51,375 nt of DNA from NCBI GenBank assembly GCA_030835185.1, contig JAUQWL010000091.1, positions 1 through 51,375 of the forward strand. Direction: 5' to 3'. Both the position numbers and the translations under genes were made by a program. Below are positions 18,094 through 32,057 of the stretch, in pieces. The notes beneath the pieces are model-generated. The model was not told the DNA's origin. It did not search any database and saw nothing but the letters and a program-made list of their open reading frames with translations. How positions within the stretch are numbered: the first letter of the stretch is position 1; each line of letters begins with the position of its first letter. The DNA comes from Solirubrobacterales bacterium. GTDB taxonomy: Bacteria > Actinomycetota > Thermoleophilia > Solirubrobacterales > 70-9.

Positions 18094-19350
18094 GTGGCAT
18101 CCAAACGACAGATATTCGTAGGCCGGGTTCCGGTCGGGGGCGGCGCTCCGGTGGTGGTCCAGACCATGACCAAGACGGAGACCGCGAACCTCGAAGCGAC
18201 CATGGAGCAGATCGAGAAGGTCACCGAAGCCGGTGCCGACGTCGTCCGCGTCGCCGTCCCCCGGGACAAGGACGTCGAAGCGTTGAAGACGATCGTCAAG
18301 CGTTCGCCGATTCCGGTGATCGCCGACATCCACTTCAACCACACGCTCGCGCTCAAGGCGATCGATGCCGGTGCCGACTGCATCCGTCTGAATCCCGGCA
18401 ACATCGGCGGGCGCGACAAGGTCGCAGAGGTGGCCGAACTGGCCAACCTGAAGGACGTGCCGATGCGGATCGGCGTCAACTCCGGATCGCTGCCAAAGCA
18501 CCTTCATGCGCTGGAGGCCGAGAACCCGACTGAAGCCCTGGTGACGGCCGCGGTCGAATTCGTCGCGCTGATGGAGAGTCTCGAATTCACCAACTTCAAG
18601 GTTTCGATCAAATCGACCAATGTGCCGGATACGATCGCCGCCAACCGGCTGCTCTCGGAAAAGATCCCCTATCCGATACACCTCGGCATCACCGAAGCCG
18701 GCACCAAGTGGTCCGGCTCGCTCAAGTCGGCGGTCGGCATGGGAGCGCTCCTGGCCGACGGCATCGGAGACACCATCCGGATCAGCCTGTCGACCTTCCA
18801 TGCCGAGGAAGAGGTCAAAGTCGCGTGGGAGATCCTCAAGGCGCTCAAATTGCGCGAGCGCGGACCGGTGCTGATCGCCTGCCCGACCTGCGGCCGCCTC
18901 CAGTTCGACATGGACGCGGTCGTCGCCGAAGTCGAACAGCGGCTCGAATCCTATGAAGAAGCGATCGAGGTCGCCGTGCTCGGTTGCGCCGTCAACGGAA
19001 TCGGCGAAGCCAAGCATGCCGACTTCGGCATCGCCGGAGCCAGGAATGAAGGCGTCGTCTTCGCCCACGGAAAGGCTCTGAAGAAGGTGCCCACCGCAAA
19101 GCTGGTCGACACCCTCTTCGAGCAGATTGACCTGTCGCTCGACCGCGATGGCGAGGTCCGCTTCGACGAAAAGGAGTCGGCAGAGGGTCAGGCCTGGGTG
19201 CAGAAGATCGAAGAAGAGAACGCCGGCGACCTGACTCCCGAGAAGATCGCCGCGATGGAGAAGGAGGCCGCTCTCAGCGACGAGGCCGACAAGCTCCTGG
19301 TCGACGAGAAAATCTCTCCGACCGCAGGACGCCGCTTCACCCGGGCGTAG
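18094..19350 (+). CDS. ispG: 4-hydroxy-3-methylbut-2-enyl diphosphate synthase (flavodoxin)
   Basis: 418 residues. TIM-barrel part contains VVVQTMTKTETANLEATMEQI, VRVAVPRDKDVEAL, VIADIHFNHTLALKA and IRLNPGNIGG. The 4Fe-4S cysteines are in IACPTCGRLQFD (~263 and 266) and VLGCAVNGIGEAKHAD (~297), followed by the conserved Glu. It reduces MEcPP to HMBPP, the penultimate MEP step. A charged, helical C-terminal extension of ~50 residues follows the core. A hairpin element begins 33 nt after its stop and could end transcription. Confidence 0.97.
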   Translation: MASKRQIFVGRVPVGGGAPVVVQTMTKTETANLEATMEQIEKVTEAGADVVRVAVPRDKDVEALKTIVKRSPIPVIADIHFNHTLALKAIDAGADCIRLNPGNIGGRDKVAEVAELANLKDVPMRIGVNSGSLPKHLHALEAENPTEALVTAAVEFVALMESLEFTNFKVSIKSTNVPDTIAANRLLSEKIPYPIHLGITEAGTKWSGSLKSAVGMGALLADGIGDTIRISLSTFHAEEEVKVAWEILKALKLRERGPVLIACPTCGRLQFDMDAVVAEVEQRLESYEEAIEVAVLGCAVNGIGEAKHADFGIAGARNEGVVFAHGKALKKVPTAKLVDTLFEQIDLSLDRDGEVRFDEKESAEGQAWVQKIEEENAGDLTPEKIAAMEKEAALSDEADKLLVDEKISPTAGRRFTRA

Positions 19351-19382
19351 GCGGGACTGGGCGCCTCCTCCTCGACCCGAAA

Positions 19383-19448
19383 CGGGTGGGATCGGGGTAC
19401 TGCCTCCTCGGCCCGAAACGTCGTCGGCAGCACCCCCGGTCCCACCCG
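19383..19448 (+). repeat. Hairpin element, left copy (REP-like)
   Basis: A 22-bp imperfect stem: 19383-19404 pairs with 19426-19448 with one mismatch, one bulge and one wobble, leaving a 21-nt loop with CCCGAAACGTCGTC. Bases 19392-19441 match the reverse complement of 22707-22756 at 44 of 50 positions by hand alignment. It lies just after ispG. No U-tract follows, so it is not a classical intrinsic terminator. Confidence 0.85.
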
Positions 19449-19639
19449 GAGGCAAGGGTCGGTGGGTATCACTCCCCGGAAGACCGCTGGCCAGCAGTGG
19501 TACAGCGCTCGCCCTGGCCGTTGTCGGATCCTCAGGCTCTCGCCAACAGCCGTGTGTCGGCTTCTCGAACCCCAAACGGACCCCTCGAAGCAGGTGTTTT
19601 CACCGTGGTCACCGGGGAGAGATCACTATCGCGCGACAC

Positions 19640-20379
19640 TTGCGCCGGCTGGACCTGATCGGGCTGAACACCGCGCGTGGATCGCTGCGGGCCTTGTTCT
19701 CAAAGGTCGGCAAGGGTGGCACGCAGATCCGGACCGCGCGGCTCAGGAAGGGGCGCCTCGCGCCGCTCGGCCAGCCGATCAACTTCAATGGCCAGGTTCT
19801 GGTCAACCTTGGAGGGTCCACGAGGGACACCCGTCCGGGCAGGATCGATGTAGGACTCGAGGATCTGAGAACCGACAGGCGCTGGGTGGCGACTCAACAT
19901 CGGTCTCGCCACTGGTCCTTTACCGGAGCATTCTCAGATGTCCGCCTCGGTCCGCAGGTGAACGGACCGGTTCGCGACGGGCTCCAGATCGTCAACGCCG
20001 GCACCGATGCTGAAACTGAAGGACCTTGGGAACTGACGCTCCAGAAATGGGCCGGCAAGAGTTGGTCACCAGCCGGTGAAGGTCCCTTGAATTCGGGTGA
20101 TGGCAATGCTCAGGGGGGACTCGATCCAGTGGGAAGTCGGATCTGGGTGACCTGGCTTCAGAACGCTCCGGCCGTCAAGGGACTGTTTCCGACGACGATT
20201 CACGCCGCGTTGCTGGATCCCACGAACTCACACCTCGAGCGAGAGCTGCTCTTGTGGAGTGGCAGTTCGTTTGGTCCCGGCCCAACTCAGGCTGTCCAGT
20301 TCCGGGGCAAGCCCGCGTTTCTGTATCTGAGGCATCGCAGAACGCGGGGCTGCGTACGACGGTGAGAATTCCCAAGTGA
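19640..20379 (+). pseudogene. Remnant of a secreted-type protein gene
   Basis: An ORF from TTG 19640 to 20365 encodes beta-rich sequence with repeats such as SGDGNAQGGLDPVGSRIWVTW and FRGKPAFLYL, like exported propeller-type proteins. There is no signal peptide or plausible start, so the 5' part seems lost. Near the end a shift to the +1 frame (about 20330) yields SEASQNAGLRTTVRIPK and a stop at 20377-20379, a more natural C-terminus than RHRRTRGCVRR. These signs suggest a decayed gene. Family not recognised. The 190 bp between the hairpin and this ORF hold only weak open frames. Confidence 0.5.
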
Positions 20380-20407
20380 TTCGCAGCGCGACCGATCGCA
20401 TAGGAAC

Positions 20408-20662
20408 ATGATCTTTGCTCTGGCCGGGCTTGCCCTCGGTGGGCTTTCCGGCTTCCCTGTCGGGAAGGTGTGGGCCGCAGTCGTTGTACTTCTCGCTCCA
20501 CTTCCTTTGTATCTGGGCGTCGCTCCAGGCCTGTGGGGAAACGGCTTCGGTGAAAACTGGCAGTACGCGATCCCGATCCGGATCATGCCCGTCTGCATCG
20601 GGTTCTACGCCGGCACGTTGATCAGGCGTGCCACCACGGTCGGTTCGCCGGAAGAACAATAG
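20408..20662 (+). CDS. Small membrane protein, unknown function
   Basis: 84 residues: hydrophobic segments at ~1-19 (IFALAGLALGGLSGF), ~20-40 (VWAAVVVLLAPLPLYLGVA) and a third, weaker one at ~55-70 (IRIMPVCIGFYAGTLI), ending in a polar tail. A weak AGGA lies just before ATG 20408. Not recognised. It stands alone between the broken gene and the toxin-antitoxin pair; its coding status is moderate because the codon pattern is less GC3-biased than neighbours. Confidence 0.5.
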   Translation: MIFALAGLALGGLSGFPVGKVWAAVVVLLAPLPLYLGVAPGLWGNGFGENWQYAIPIRIMPVCIGFYAGTLIRRATTVGSPEEQ

Positions 20663-20692
20663 GTCTGACGGTCCTGGGTCTCGGCACCCGGT

Positions 20693-20698
20693 TATACT
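20693..20698 (+). promoter_or_regulatory. -10 box and possible operator of the toxin-antitoxin pair
   Basis: TATACT lies 6 nt before the antitoxin ATG at 20705. ATAC and GTAT form an inverted repeat across a 5-nt TTTTG spacer that overlaps the box and the start codon, a plausible site for antitoxin autoregulation. Confidence 0.55.
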
Positions 20699-20704
20699 TT
20701 TGGT

Positions 20705-20941
20705 ATGAAGACAGCGGTCTCGATTCCGGATGATCTCTTCGCCCAGGCGGATCGGCTGGCTGATCGGCTGGGCAAGAGCCGCAGCGAGGTCTACCGCGAG
20801 GCTTTGGCCGACTATGTGGCCCGCCGTGAGCCGGGGGCGGTTACCAGGGCGCTCGATGAAGTCGCTGAGGATCTCGAAGCCGACCGGGACGCCTTCAGCG
20901 ATGAAGCTGCCCGCCGGACGCTCGGGCATTCCGAATGGTGA
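20705..20941 (+). CDS. Ribbon-helix-helix antitoxin (MazE-type)
   Basis: 78 residues. The N-terminus MKTAVSIPDDLFAQADRLA followed by LGKSRSEVYREALADYV is a typical CopG/RHH DNA-binding fold; the acidic C-terminal half (EDLEADRDAFSDEAA) would bind the toxin. It directly precedes and overlaps a MazF-type toxin by 7 nt. Expected to repress its own promoter through the repeat at the start. Leaderless-type start. Confidence 0.88.
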   Translation: MKTAVSIPDDLFAQADRLADRLGKSRSEVYREALADYVARREPGAVTRALDEVAEDLEADRDAFSDEAARRTLGHSEW

Positions 20942-21282
20942 CAAGCCAGGGCGATGTCTGCTGGGCATCGCTGGAGGATCCGCTCGGATCGGGACCAGGT
21001 TTCCGTCGGCCTGTCGTGGTCGTCCAGGGGGATGAATTCAACGCCAGCCGAATCGCCACGACCGTGATCGTTCCGTTGACGAGCAATCTGCGATTGGCGG
21101 ACGCACCCGGAAATGTTTTGCTGCCGACCGTGCGCACAGGTTTGTCCAAGGATTCCGTGGCGAACGTCTCCCAGATCCTCAGCATTGACCGGAGCCTGCT
21201 CGAAGAGCGCGTCGGTCGCCTCTCGGCGAACGACCTGCTTCTGGTTCTGGCCGGCATTGATCTCGTGCTCGGGCGGGCGTAA
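20935..21282 (+). CDS. MazF/PemK-type mRNA interferase toxin
   Basis: 115 residues. GDVCWASLEDPLGSGPGFRRPVVVVQGDEFN is the usual MazF beta-barrel opening, followed by ATTVIVPLTSNLRLADAPGNVLLP and DSVANVSQILSIDRSLLEERVGRL. This matches the full-length family core including the conserved Arg of RRPVVV. GTG/ATG choice is open: the track start at 20935 overlaps the antitoxin. Cuts single-stranded RNA and is neutralised by the RHH partner. It appears intact although its neighbours are decayed. Confidence 0.9.
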   Translation: MVTSQGDVCWASLEDPLGSGPGFRRPVVVVQGDEFNASRIATTVIVPLTSNLRLADAPGNVLLPTVRTGLSKDSVANVSQILSIDRSLLEERVGRLSANDLLLVLAGIDLVLGRA

Positions 21283-21440
21283 GGCCGGTGATACAAGTTG
21301 AGCACAGTCGACACGTCATACGAGCGCCAGGTGACCATTCCCCTCGCTGACTGCCCCGGCAGGGAGGCCGGGACAATGCTGACCGTGGCTTGAACGTCGC
21401 GACCGGGACCCGGTTGCTGCCACGGCTCGTCGCCCGACAG

Positions 21441-21509
21441 GTCGTTGCGGGTGATGATCGCCGGCTCATGAGTGGTTTCGACCTGATCCAGAAGCCAGGA
21501 GGGCCGCCA
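21441..21509 (-). pseudogene. Phd/YefM antitoxin-like fragment
   Basis: One reverse frame reads LLDQVETTHEPAIITRND, which closely resembles the Phd/YefM antitoxin core ('LLdxVexthExvxITRnG'). The usual continuation (RPAAVL) and an N-terminal start are not seen, so only a relic can be claimed. The surrounding stretch 21283-21516 holds no other supportable gene. Confidence 0.35.
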
Positions 21510-21516
21510 GCCGCAT

Positions 21517-22622
21517 CTACACCCTTTCGAACGGGAGTAGGTGACTGACCTGAGGTTCGGGTGCCCAGTCGGTTTGGGAGTCGACCCTTGGTCCGCTGGT
21601 GAGTCGGACCGCTTCACCGCCTTCTGCAGACACCGCATAGAGGTCTCCGGCGTCGAATACGGAGCCCATGGAATAGGCGAGCCACTCAGCGTCTGGCGAC
21701 CAGGTGGGGTCGAAGGGGCAGTCGGGTGCCTCGCCAGCGCAGGCGGCTACCGCTTCGCCGGGAGAGCCGTCCACTACCCCCGTGAAAAGCTCGCCGCCCT
21801 CTCCAGCATCGACGACGCCGGCCCACCGGTCGTCCCGGGCCACCCAGCCGAATGCAGCCTGAGGGCCGCAGCGGGAGCCGGGACAGAAGTCGACCCGGTT
21901 CAGAGTGCGGTCGCGTTGCCGGAACTCGAAGATCCCGTCTTTCCGGCTCGGAAAGGAGTTCGACAGAAAAATGTTCAAGCCATCGGCCGACCAGGTCGGT
22001 CCGGATGCCGGCTGAAAGCCTTTCGGAAATCGAGAAGCTGTTCTTTCCCGTTCGTGAGATCAGGCAGGACGACTTCCGTGCCGTTCTCCGGACCACGTTC
22101 GTAGACCCTCAGGGATCCCGGACGGCGACCGCCCGGAGCCCAGGATGGACCGTGCTCACCTTCGCATTTGGGCGGTATGCAATCGGTCACTGGTTTCGCT
22201 CCGTTGCCGTTCCTGCCAAGCACCCAGAGGCGTGAAGCCGGCGGTTCATCCTGCAGGATGGTCATGCGGGAGAAAGCGATGCGTTTTCCATCCGGGGATC
22301 AGGTCGGACCGAGATCGACTCCGGGCCCGCTGGTCAGCGAGCGCTCCTCTTGATTCTTGAGCGACAGCGTGAAGATGTCCGCGTCCGCAGGCAGATAGAC
22401 ATCAGCAGGAGCGAGAACCGCGCCGGGGGTGGCCCTCGAGAAAGCGATGCTCCCGGTTTCGGGCCGCCCGCTTGAATCGACAGAGTCCTGTCCGTCAGAT
22501 CTGCAGCCGGCGCCGGCTACGGTGGCGATCAGCAGGGGTGCAAAGGGGAAGAAGCCGAAACGGACAGTGCCCACCGATATCGCGCCTGACTGCCGAGTCT
22601 CGGTGTCATCCTCCGTGAACAT
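21517..22622 (-). pseudogene. Broken TolB-like (PD40) beta-propeller lipoprotein gene
   Basis: Reading the minus strand from 22622: N-terminus with hydrophobic stretch and lipobox (LLIATVAGAGC), then propeller repeats. The frame is stopped by TGA at 22299-22301 exactly where a Trp is expected (GPT-stop-SPDGKRIAFSR, normally WSPDG). Downstream, about 22020-22040, a one-base frameshift moves the sequence to the frame giving GPTWSADGLNIFLSNSF and later WSPDAEWLAYSM, SAEGGEAVRLTSG. The two lesions split it into pieces that the track lists separately. PD40 proteins are periplasmic or surface propellers; this one should be non-functional unless sequencing errors caused the lesions. Confidence 0.75.
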
Positions 22623-22702
22623 ACGTCAAGTCCTCCTCGCCTGAAGTGGGCTCGAGCGTAGAGCATTCCGAAACACCCTCGAAACCGTGGTCAGGATCAA
22701 GA

Positions 22703-22762
22703 GCGTGACCGGGGATACCTCCGACGACGTTTCGGGTCGAGGGGGCAGTACCCCGACCTCGC
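22703..22762 (-). repeat. Hairpin element, right copy (inverted relative to left)
   Basis: On the minus strand this 60-nt element folds like the left copy at 19383-19448, with the same bulge position and a loop containing CTCGACCCGAAACGTCGTC. One stem mismatch of the left copy is a base pair here. Lies between the broken lipoprotein gene and proS. The 80 bp between 22623 and it show nothing else. Confidence 0.85.
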
Positions 22763-22816
22763 CAGCGGTGGCCGAAACACGGGAGTGGGACCGAGCCGGG
22801 AATCGGGTGCGGCCGA

Positions 22817-22831: not shown

Positions 22832-24517
22832 ATGACCCGTGTCTCGCGCACACTGCTGCCCACCCTGAAGGATCCGCCCGCAGACGCGGAGGCGATCAGC
22901 CACCGGCTTCTGGTCCGGGCCGGCATGGTCCGCCAGATGGGTGCCGGCCTCTGGACCTGGCTTCCGGCCGGGCTCCGGGTGCATCGCAAGGTCGAGCAGA
23001 TCCTCCGCGAGGAGATGGAGCTGGCCGGGGCCGCGGAGGTCTCGATGCCGGTCCTTCAGCCCTCCGACCCCTGGGAGAAGACAGGCCGCTACGGCATCGA
23101 GGAACTGTTCAAGCTGGAGGATCGCAAAGGCTCGCCGATGGTCCTGGCGATGACTCACGAAGAATGTGTCACCGGCCACATCGCCAAGGAGGTCCGTTCC
23201 TACCGGGACCTGCCGAAGATCCTTTTCCAGCTTCAGGTCAAGGAGCGCGATGAACCACGGCCGAGGGCCGGTGTGCTCCGAACCCGTGAGTTCCTGATGA
23301 AGGACGCATACAGCTTCGACCGCGACCTCGAGGGGCTCGACGCCAGCTACGCGGCGATGACCGCCGCCTACGACCGGATCTTCGACCGGACCGGCCTGCG
23401 CTGGTACCGGGTCGAGAGCGACGTCGGCATGATGGGCGGCCTGGGCGCTCACGAGTACATGGCGCCGTGCGAGGCCGGGGAAGACACGGTCGTCATCGCT
23501 CCCGGGTATGCGGCGAACCTCGAAATCGCATCGGCAGCCCCGCCGAAGATCGAACTCCCGCCCGCTCTGCCTGCTCCCGAGGAGATCGAAACCCCTGGAT
23601 TGAAGACGGTGGCGGAAGTCTCGGAGAGCCTGGGCGTGCAGCCGGGGGCCTTGATCAAGTCGGTACCGATGGTCAGCGACGACGGCGAGATGGTCCTGGT
23701 CCTGGTCCGCGGTGACGACCAGGTCAACCCGGTGAAACTCGCTAACGCGCTCGGCTTTGCCGCGCGCCCGGCCCGGGAGGACGAGATCGAAGAAAAGCTC
23801 GGTCCCCCGGGGTTCATCGGGCCGGCCGGTGCTTCGCTCAGAGTGGTCAAGGACTTCGCCGTCAGGGGTTCGGGTCTGATCGCCGGGGCCAACCGGCTGG
23901 ACCTCCACCTGCGCGGGGTCGAGCCGGGTCGTGACTTCGAATTCGAGGAAGCCGACATCCGTATGGTCAGGTCCGGCGATCTGACCGACGACGGACATGA
24001 AGTCACGCTCGAAGCAGCGATCGAGGTCGGCAACATCTTCAAGCTGGGTACGCGATACAGCGAACCGCTGGGTGCGACCTACCTCGACGAAAACGGCAAC
24101 GAGAACGCGATTGAGATGGGCAGCTACGGAATCGGGCCGGCGAGGATCGCCGCCGCCGCGGCCGAACAGCTCAGCGACGAAAAGGGCCTCTGCTGGCCGG
24201 CGTCGCTCGCCCCGTGGCAGGTCCACCTGGTTTCGCTTGCCAAGGCCGGCGAATCCGAGCGTGCGAGCGCCGATCGCCTCTACGAAGAACTTGAGCAGGC
24301 CGGCGTCGAAGTGCTCTACGACGATCGCGATGCCGGTCCGGGTCAGAAGCTGACCGACGCCGAACTGATCGGTTGCCCGCTGAGGGTCGTGGTCGGCAGG
24401 CGCGGGCTGGCGGATGGTATTTACGAGGCCTCGGAACGCGGCAGCGGTGAGGAACACCGCATTCCGGTCGACGGGGGCCCCGCGGAAATCGCCCGTCTCT
24501 CCGGCACCCTGGCCTGA
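22832..24517 (+). CDS. proS: Prolyl-tRNA synthetase (bacterial type, with editing domain)
   Basis: 561 residues. Class II motifs: motif 1 in the MEEL-like N-terminal region with MPVLQPSDPW, motif 2 in LFQLQVKERDEPRPRAGVLRTREFLMKDAYSF, motif 3 in EMGSYGIGPARIAAA. Residues ~230-380 form the YbaK-like editing insertion that removes alanine from mischarged tRNA(Pro) (SLGVQPGALIKSV, VLVRGDDQVNPVKL). The C-terminal anticodon domain (WQVHLVSLAKA, VLYDDRDAGPGQKLTDAELIGCPLRVVVG) is complete. The stop overlaps the next gene's ATG. Confidence 0.97.
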   Translation: MTRVSRTLLPTLKDPPADAEAISHRLLVRAGMVRQMGAGLWTWLPAGLRVHRKVEQILREEMELAGAAEVSMPVLQPSDPWEKTGRYGIEELFKLEDRKGSPMVLAMTHEECVTGHIAKEVRSYRDLPKILFQLQVKERDEPRPRAGVLRTREFLMKDAYSFDRDLEGLDASYAAMTAAYDRIFDRTGLRWYRVESDVGMMGGLGAHEYMAPCEAGEDTVVIAPGYAANLEIASAAPPKIELPPALPAPEEIETPGLKTVAEVSESLGVQPGALIKSVPMVSDDGEMVLVLVRGDDQVNPVKLANALGFAARPAREDEIEEKLGPPGFIGPAGASLRVVKDFAVRGSGLIAGANRLDLHLRGVEPGRDFEFEEADIRMVRSGDLTDDGHEVTLEAAIEVGNIFKLGTRYSEPLGATYLDENGNENAIEMGSYGIGPARIAAAAAEQLSDEKGLCWPASLAPWQVHLVSLAKAGESERASADRLYEELEQAGVEVLYDDRDAGPGQKLTDAELIGCPLRVVVGRRGLADGIYEASERGSGEEHRIPVDGGPAEIARLSGTLA

Positions 24518-31791: not shown

Positions 31792-31903
31792 GCGGCAAAG
31801 GCCACCCGGGCGATTCCGGCTGCGTTCTTGCGTCTGTGATCCCACCCACACACAGACCTGATTCGTATCCCTTTACTAACGTTCTACTTACACAACACTC
31901 ATA

Positions 31904-32043
31904 AAGCCGAGCCGTCGCGAACGAGTGACGGACGGGGGACCCGAAGTCGTGGACGTACGCGACACGGGGCGAATCCGGTGGTGATCCACCGGTAGCCGGG
32001 AATTGAAAACCCCGGCGAGCCCGACAGCTAACCCCGTAGGCCA
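31904..32043 (+). ncRNA. Cyclic di-AMP riboswitch (ydaO/yuaA type)
   Basis: The leader holds the conserved blocks of this riboswitch class in order: GGGGGACCCGAA (~31933), GGGGCGAATCC, a variable hairpin ending GGTAGCCGGG, and CCCGACAGCTAACCCCGTAGGC split around 32020-32041, with GCC at 31906 closing P1 against GGC. The class senses c-di-AMP and usually turns off cell-wall remodelling or potassium genes. It ends 1-2 nt before the AAGGAG ribosome site (32045-32050) of the downstream gene, so control of translation or of an overlapping terminator is possible. I did not compute a fold. Confidence 0.93.
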
Positions 32044-32057
32044 CAAGGAGAACCAAA

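Follow-up and report, generated by a model that had tools for sequence, protein, structure and literature searches.

The window, a 51,375-nucleotide (nt) stretch of contig JAUQWL010000091.1 from a Solirubrobacterales bacterium (assembly GCA_030835185.1), contains two inverted copies of a long hairpin, one following ispG and the other preceding proS. We put at roughly 60% the probability that both hairpins belong to a short (about 60- to 80-bp) nonautonomous palindromic insertion element that is scattered through this Solirubrobacterales genus as selfish DNA and whose arms are kept complementary at the DNA level. Copies of the element, which we call family A, are dispersed over many loci, are patchily present at orthologous sites, covary throughout their stems, prefer positions after stop codons on the same strand, and occur in frame within conserved genes.

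Dispersal and anatomy of the palindromic element

Our search set comprised 18 genomes of this genus, with the window's own genome designated G000, and a 201-genome sample of the order. A BLAST search of G000 with the left window copy recovered a third copy (G000:C49:2569-2611, minus strand) in addition to the right one. A covariance model was then built from 27 copies, and matches were counted at an E value below about 1e-7. It identified 31 family A copies in 9 of the 18 genus genomes, with one to seven copies in each of those genomes, and no strong match outside the genus in the 201-genome sample. A sequence-only reading of the window had proposed such a covariance-model search of the genome and its relatives, with a dispersed palindromic element among the candidate explanations; the many further copies at many loci bear out the dispersal. 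Exact pattern matches in named genomes fall nearly all within Solirubrobacterales metagenome-assembled genomes (MAGs), e.g., 67-14, HKST-UBA64/66/67, and SSF62. Exact matches in Pantoea and Paenibacillus have no proper stem and were discarded as chance. The hosts are uncultured bacteria of soil and water. The genomes examined all seem to be MAGs and several copies lie at contig ends, so the copy numbers are lower bounds.

The 27 family A copies align without gaps, with element lengths of about 60 to 80 bp. At the apex is a nearly invariant 21-nt core, TCCTCGRCCCGAAACGTCGTC, which forms a small hairpin of its own, with an inner stem (CGRC/GTCG), an asymmetric internal loop (TCCT/TC), and a heptaloop (CCGAAAC). 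This core is set in an outer stem of about 20 bp that is different at every locus, yet self-complementary. All 21 outer stem pairs have compensating double changes, and double-changed cells number 170, compared with 48.1 in shuffles and no more than 40 in controls with a slid partner position. Conservation of structure had initially been argued from one mismatched position in the left window copy that is paired in the right one. That single change is weak evidence, while the covariation across the 27 copies is overwhelming.

The core and the stem also differ in how they age. Stems are 53% identical in 18 pairs of orthologous sites and 45% identical between loci, where 31% is expected from composition; the corresponding figures for the core are 98% and 96%. 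Since the stem has diverged at orthologous sites and the core has not, these sites are old enough for stem divergence. Despite this divergence the stems remain complementary, both here and in the sister family described below (family B).

The stems do not appear to carry the mark of selection on an RNA fold. Excluding the internal loop, family A stems contain 9 G-U pairs and 40 mismatches and family B stems 5 and 26, whereas 13 tRNAs of these genomes have 10 G-U pairs and 1 mismatch in their acceptor stems. Because wobble pairs are not favored over mismatches, unlike in the tRNAs, we infer that what maintains the arms acts on DNA and is not selection for RNA folding; it could be template switching, the repair of hairpins, or some function of the hairpin as DNA.

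Genomic positions and a sister family

Position could be classed for 30 of the 31 family A copies. Gene calls near the copies come from a simple codon-usage finder with a homology check for key genes only, and gene names at these sites, ispG excepted, were read by eye from translations. Most copies (23 of 31) begin 5 to 54 nt 3' of a same-strand stop codon. The genes they follow are ispG, an acyl-CoA synthetase gene, a ferredoxin-like gene after sucD, a MaoC-like gene before hrcA, potC, plsC, obgE, and genes for the small subunit of methylmalonyl-CoA mutase and a substrate-binding protein. Another 4 of the 31 are in frame within coding sequences: one in purQ of G010, an inverted pair in purQ of G013, and one in a C-terminal extension on G015:C114. 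In both purQ genes the reading frame stays open through the inserts. Three copies are antisense to or 5' of genes, the right window copy among them.

Presence at a given site is patchy. The slot after ispG is filled in G000, G012, G009, and G015 and empty in the near relatives G008, G001, and G010, which yields the filled/empty pairs G000/G008, G012/G001, and G015/G010. Inverted pairs recur in both families, at G013 purQ, the G008 hrcA locus, G009 nuoC, G015 nuoG, G012 nuoC, and G014 E2.

Orthologous 3' slots that lack the core (L193, L194, L196, L199, and L143) often hold another near-perfect hairpin of 16 to 30 bp with an unrelated loop. At the MaoC-like locus of G009 (G009:C11:113912-114031), the stem is nearly as in G013, with a different apical segment of about 70 nt. 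This looks like an apical exchange, and the new segment can itself form a hairpin.

We also considered, and dropped as the principal model, an inverted duplication of target DNA, which is conceivable but less likely. The element-free purQ of G015 contains GGCGGGTCCGGC, which equals the left arm of the G010 insert and gives the impression that the element was copied from the host. However, G010 and G015 group together while G013, from another clade, has an insert, so that a remnant left after loss is the simpler account. Furthermore, stems across loci share a consensus above composition, as the identities above indicate.

An unbiased hairpin scan of 800 kb from two genomes returned 33 strong hairpins, compared with 2 in shuffled sequence. 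Five of the 33 share a second constant core, CCGGACTTCGCCGGGAGTT, which reads as the peptide GRTSPGVP, or as GTPGEVRP when inverted. All five of these family B hairpins are in frame: one in NuoG, an inverted two in NuoC, one in the linker of pyruvate dehydrogenase (PDH) E2, and one in a 255-amino-acid protein of G009. Covariation is strong here too, and some copies have exchanged apical segments. A family B model added NuoC of G007 and DnaX of G010 within the genus and, in other genera, in-frame copies in RecJ, CysS, MurC, Lhr-type helicases, and NuoJ; some copies lie 11 to 19 nt 3' of stop codons, but most of the family is in frame within proteins. NuoC of G010, G006, and G003 has no insert. 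The same model matches one family A copy weakly (G009:C2:142090; E value, 5e-5), which suggests that the two families share a stem consensus while differing in their cores.

In the NuoG linker, related inserts are found in most species examined, G000 included, and this linker has the look of a hotspot in which new protein sequence of low complexity arises. Further palindromes with other apical sequences were seen there in nuoG of G003 (L258) and of G002 (L261). The protein-level reading leaves out some loci whose translations came in a wrong or unusable frame, among them L149, L261, L272, L285, and L286. A third, intergenic palindrome family with a constant stem, of the CGAGATTGAGTTCAAYCGC ... 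GCGATTGAACTCAATCTCG type, is present in G009:C2 (L211 and L217) and G001:C45 (L237).

Genome G112 has undergone a recent burst of at least 16 near-identical palindromes of about 120 bp (L090, L093, L095, and L319-L348), with arms of GGGAGGGGGTCGGGGGACCCTCC, an apical segment that begins with TCTCTCGGCC and ends with AAAACGTTC, and conserved outer flanks. Arm identity has decayed in some copies, and paired changes are apparently shared in others. These palindromes are possibly a cousin of family A.

The window copies and the ispG-proS interval

The similarity first noticed between bases 19392-19441 and the reverse complement of 22707-22756 (44 of 50 positions) holds up in BLAST against the genome itself (88% over 50 bases; E value, 7e-12) and in the covariance model, and the shared apical part corresponds to the two cores listed in Table 1. 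In the left copy the core consists of the 4-bp inner stem CGGC/GTCG, the heptaloop CCGAAAC, and the internal loop TCCT/TC. This hairpin lies 34 nt 3' of the ispG stop codon on the same strand and folds with -47.5 kcal/mol (z score, -3.1; 0 of 200 dinucleotide shuffles as stable). The right hairpin, about 60 to 75 nt 5' of the proS start, has the same general shape at -32.6 kcal/mol (z score, -0.3), a stability that is unexceptional alone. The partial core TCCTCGACCCGAAACG, which the sequence-only reading did not mention, is probably a degenerate or truncated neighbor copy. A half copy next to a full copy, as at the left window hairpin, is also seen at the ferredoxin-like locus of G015. An Rfam scan of the window gave no family above its gathering score at the hairpins, the sole match being a c-di-AMP riboswitch (ydaO/yuaA leader) at 31895-32057 on the plus strand (67 bits).

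Table 1. Coordinates of the hairpins, their cores, and surrounding genes in the window
Feature	Coordinates	Strand	Details
Left hairpin element (family A)	19378..19455	+	Stem about 19383-19448; covariance model 72.1 bits, E 1e-14
Left core TCCTCGGCCCGAAACGTCGTC	19405..19425	+	Near-invariant in 27 copies
Partial second core TCCTCGACCCGAAACG	19369..19384	+	Adjoins left copy on 5' side; 16 nt exact, direct reading
Right hairpin element (family A)	22693..22770	-	Antisense to proS; covariance model 51.5 bits, E 7e-10
Right core CCCTCGACCCGAAACGTCGTC	22723..22743	-	Sequence reading
ispG (gcpE)	18094..19350	+	Upstream of left hairpin; Pfam PF04551, E 1e-136
RHH antitoxin	20705..20941	+	Accessory interval, outside element; Pfam PF01402, PF09957
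PemK/MazF-like toxin	20935..21282	+	Accessory interval, outside element; Pfam PF02452, E 4e-23
proS	22832..24517	+	Downstream flank; Pfam tRNA-synt_2b, tRNA_edit, HGTP_anticodon

Pfam matches confirm the ispG and proS flanks and the toxin-antitoxin pair between them. The 3.4-kb interval of G000 that holds this RHH/PemK-MazF pair is accessory: the spacing between ispG and proS is about 90 bp in the sister species G008 and about 30 to 50 bp in G002, G004, G005, and G016, and several other species have a methyltransferase-like gene between the two. Minus-strand fragments of decayed appearance occupy 21517-22622 within the interval and have no Pfam match.

Competing explanations and relation to known elements

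Under the reading that we favor, the element would spread as selfish DNA and be tolerated where it does little harm, namely, 3' of genes and in protein linkers and surface loops, there only with an open frame. Its arms would stay complementary at the DNA level, most simply through template switching or hairpin repair during replication. The core would be the part recognized by a putative mobilizing or host factor, since no other part has kept its sequence where orthologous sites are old. The window's inverted pair would then reflect a recurrent tendency of second copies to land inverted near a first, not the borders of an island.

Several points weigh against this reading. No mobilizing enzyme was found, and no two family A copies are identical, so that recent transposition is not directly visible. 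A purely neutral dead insertion would not be expected to keep its core at old sites of vertical descent, so the core could serve the host. An RNA element would also suit the strand-specific position after stop codons, and the G-U argument has just the 13 tRNAs as its control. The G112 burst involves a related but longer element that has conserved flanks and whose scores for homology to family A are weak (E value, about 1e-5). Finally, the hosts are MAGs, with contigs that stop at several of the copies.

One tentative elaboration, which we hold to be possible but doubtful, is that the element is self-templating, with only the core inherited as sequence and the stem rewritten from arm to arm by host replication through template switching at the hairpin. 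If so, the element would persist by its shape and core, and its apical cargo would be exchangeable (compare the G009 MaoC-like copy with its G013 ortholog).

A role as a host RNA element of 3' untranslated regions, either a terminator without a U tract or a stabilizer of mRNA 3' ends whose apical loop is bound by protein or RNA and kept by selection, is also conceivable, although we consider it unlikely. The preferred location just behind stop codons is where a terminator would lie, the core is strand specific and conserved while the stem drifts with compensation, and other long hairpins occupy the same slot in species without the core. Yet copies sit in frame in purQ and, for family B, in many essential genes, in which strong termination would do damage; the same gene has no element in near relatives; wobble pairs are not favored; and three copies are antisense to or 5' of genes. 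There is also no T tract (a mean of 1.7 T in the 9 nt past the stem; 27 copies). A plain terminator family was rejected on the grounds of the missing T tract, the in-gene copies, and the finding that gene ends in the window do not generally carry long hairpins (9, compared with 9 to 11 in shuffles). A terminator scan did not pick up the hairpins.

A DNA transposon with long inverted repeats, represented by its ends or by miniature derivatives (MITEs), would account for dispersed inverted-repeat elements and for the recent G112 burst, in which the palindromes are related and near-identical. We nonetheless find this improbable. Among the G112 arm matches there is no widely spaced pair of arms that would mark an autonomous partner, the arms within the genus vary by locus although a transposase would be expected to need them conserved, and target duplications are not evident by eye in the filled sites or the G112 flanks that were read.

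The sequence-only reading had also raised the possibility of recombination sites delimiting an insertion hotspot, given one copy on either side of what is indeed an accessory interval. This is very hard to sustain. The hairpins do not define the island, because the left slot is also filled in three species without it (G012, G009, and G015); most copies elsewhere bracket nothing; and inverted repeats would yield inversion, not excision.

REP/BIME elements, which a RAYT (Y1) transposase would move, were among the initial proposals and would fit short extragenic palindromes that often form inverted pairs. They are the least credible source, as PF01797 occurs in just 1 of the 18 genus genomes (G000) and in none of the copy-rich ones, and the constant part is the apical core and not the stem. 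No other transposase of the Y1/RAYT type was found in the genus than this one, located at G000:C204:3639-3971 (L290) in the genome of the window itself.

Returning to a selfish palindromic element, the closest counterparts are the Rickettsia and Wolbachia palindromic elements (RPE and WPE), short palindromes with long stem-loops that lie between genes and in frame, without stop codons, in genes for conserved proteins (PMC2229807, PMC4224334). The elements described here are likewise dispersed palindromes with long stem-loops, both intergenic and in frame in conserved genes (purQ in family A; NuoG, NuoC, E2, RecJ, CysS, and MurC, among others, in family B). However, RPEs measure 105 to 146 bp (PMC2229807), and their repeats grow less alike with time (PMC6649704), whereas ours are shorter and show no decay of arm complementarity, with locus-specific stems around the conserved core. 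We do not assign them to RPE because of their length, the absence of such decay, and the restriction of sequence conservation to the core. In-frame palindromic elements in the cited papers are from Rickettsiales, while the hosts here are Actinomycetota. The present elements behave like RPE and WPE but have a constant core, a variable stem, and persistent complementarity.

Coding palindromes in Nematomorpha mitochondria are inverted repeats in coding genes that are gained and lost between species, with template switching as the proposed mechanism (PMC6649704). Complementarity is apparently kept in a like manner here, by DNA-level conversion or template switch. The nematomorph repeats are perfect, reach 284 bp, and have both arms encoding conserved protein regions (PMC6649704), whereas the present elements have a dispersed constant core and insert in linkers or after genes. 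The enterobacterial ERIC/RU-1 and neisserial Correia/NEMIS, MITEs that contain open reading frames, are nonautonomous palindromic repeats that sometimes form in-frame fusions (PMC2229807); they have conserved terminal repeats and target duplications, while our elements have varying ends and no evident duplication. REP/BIME/REPIN elements are extragenic palindromes, often in inverted pairs as here, with a constant stem in place of a constant loop and variable stem. Integron attC sites come with a linked integrase and are conserved in their outer core sites (RYYYAAC/GTTRRRY), the reverse of the present elements, which are conserved at the apex and variable at the stem ends. A full-text literature search covering open-licence papers returned nothing on such elements in Solirubrobacterales.

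Taken together, these observations place in-frame palindromic inserts in Actinomycetota genes of replication, repair, translation, cell wall synthesis, and respiration, in hosts known from environmental-sample assemblies. The fixed core and the drifting but paired stem separate two forces that are confounded in classical elements, sequence recognition and palindrome maintenance. Two old questions can thereby be put to the test: by what means such elements move, and whether it is selection or a DNA copying mechanism that preserves palindromes. The elements also appear to create new protein linkers.

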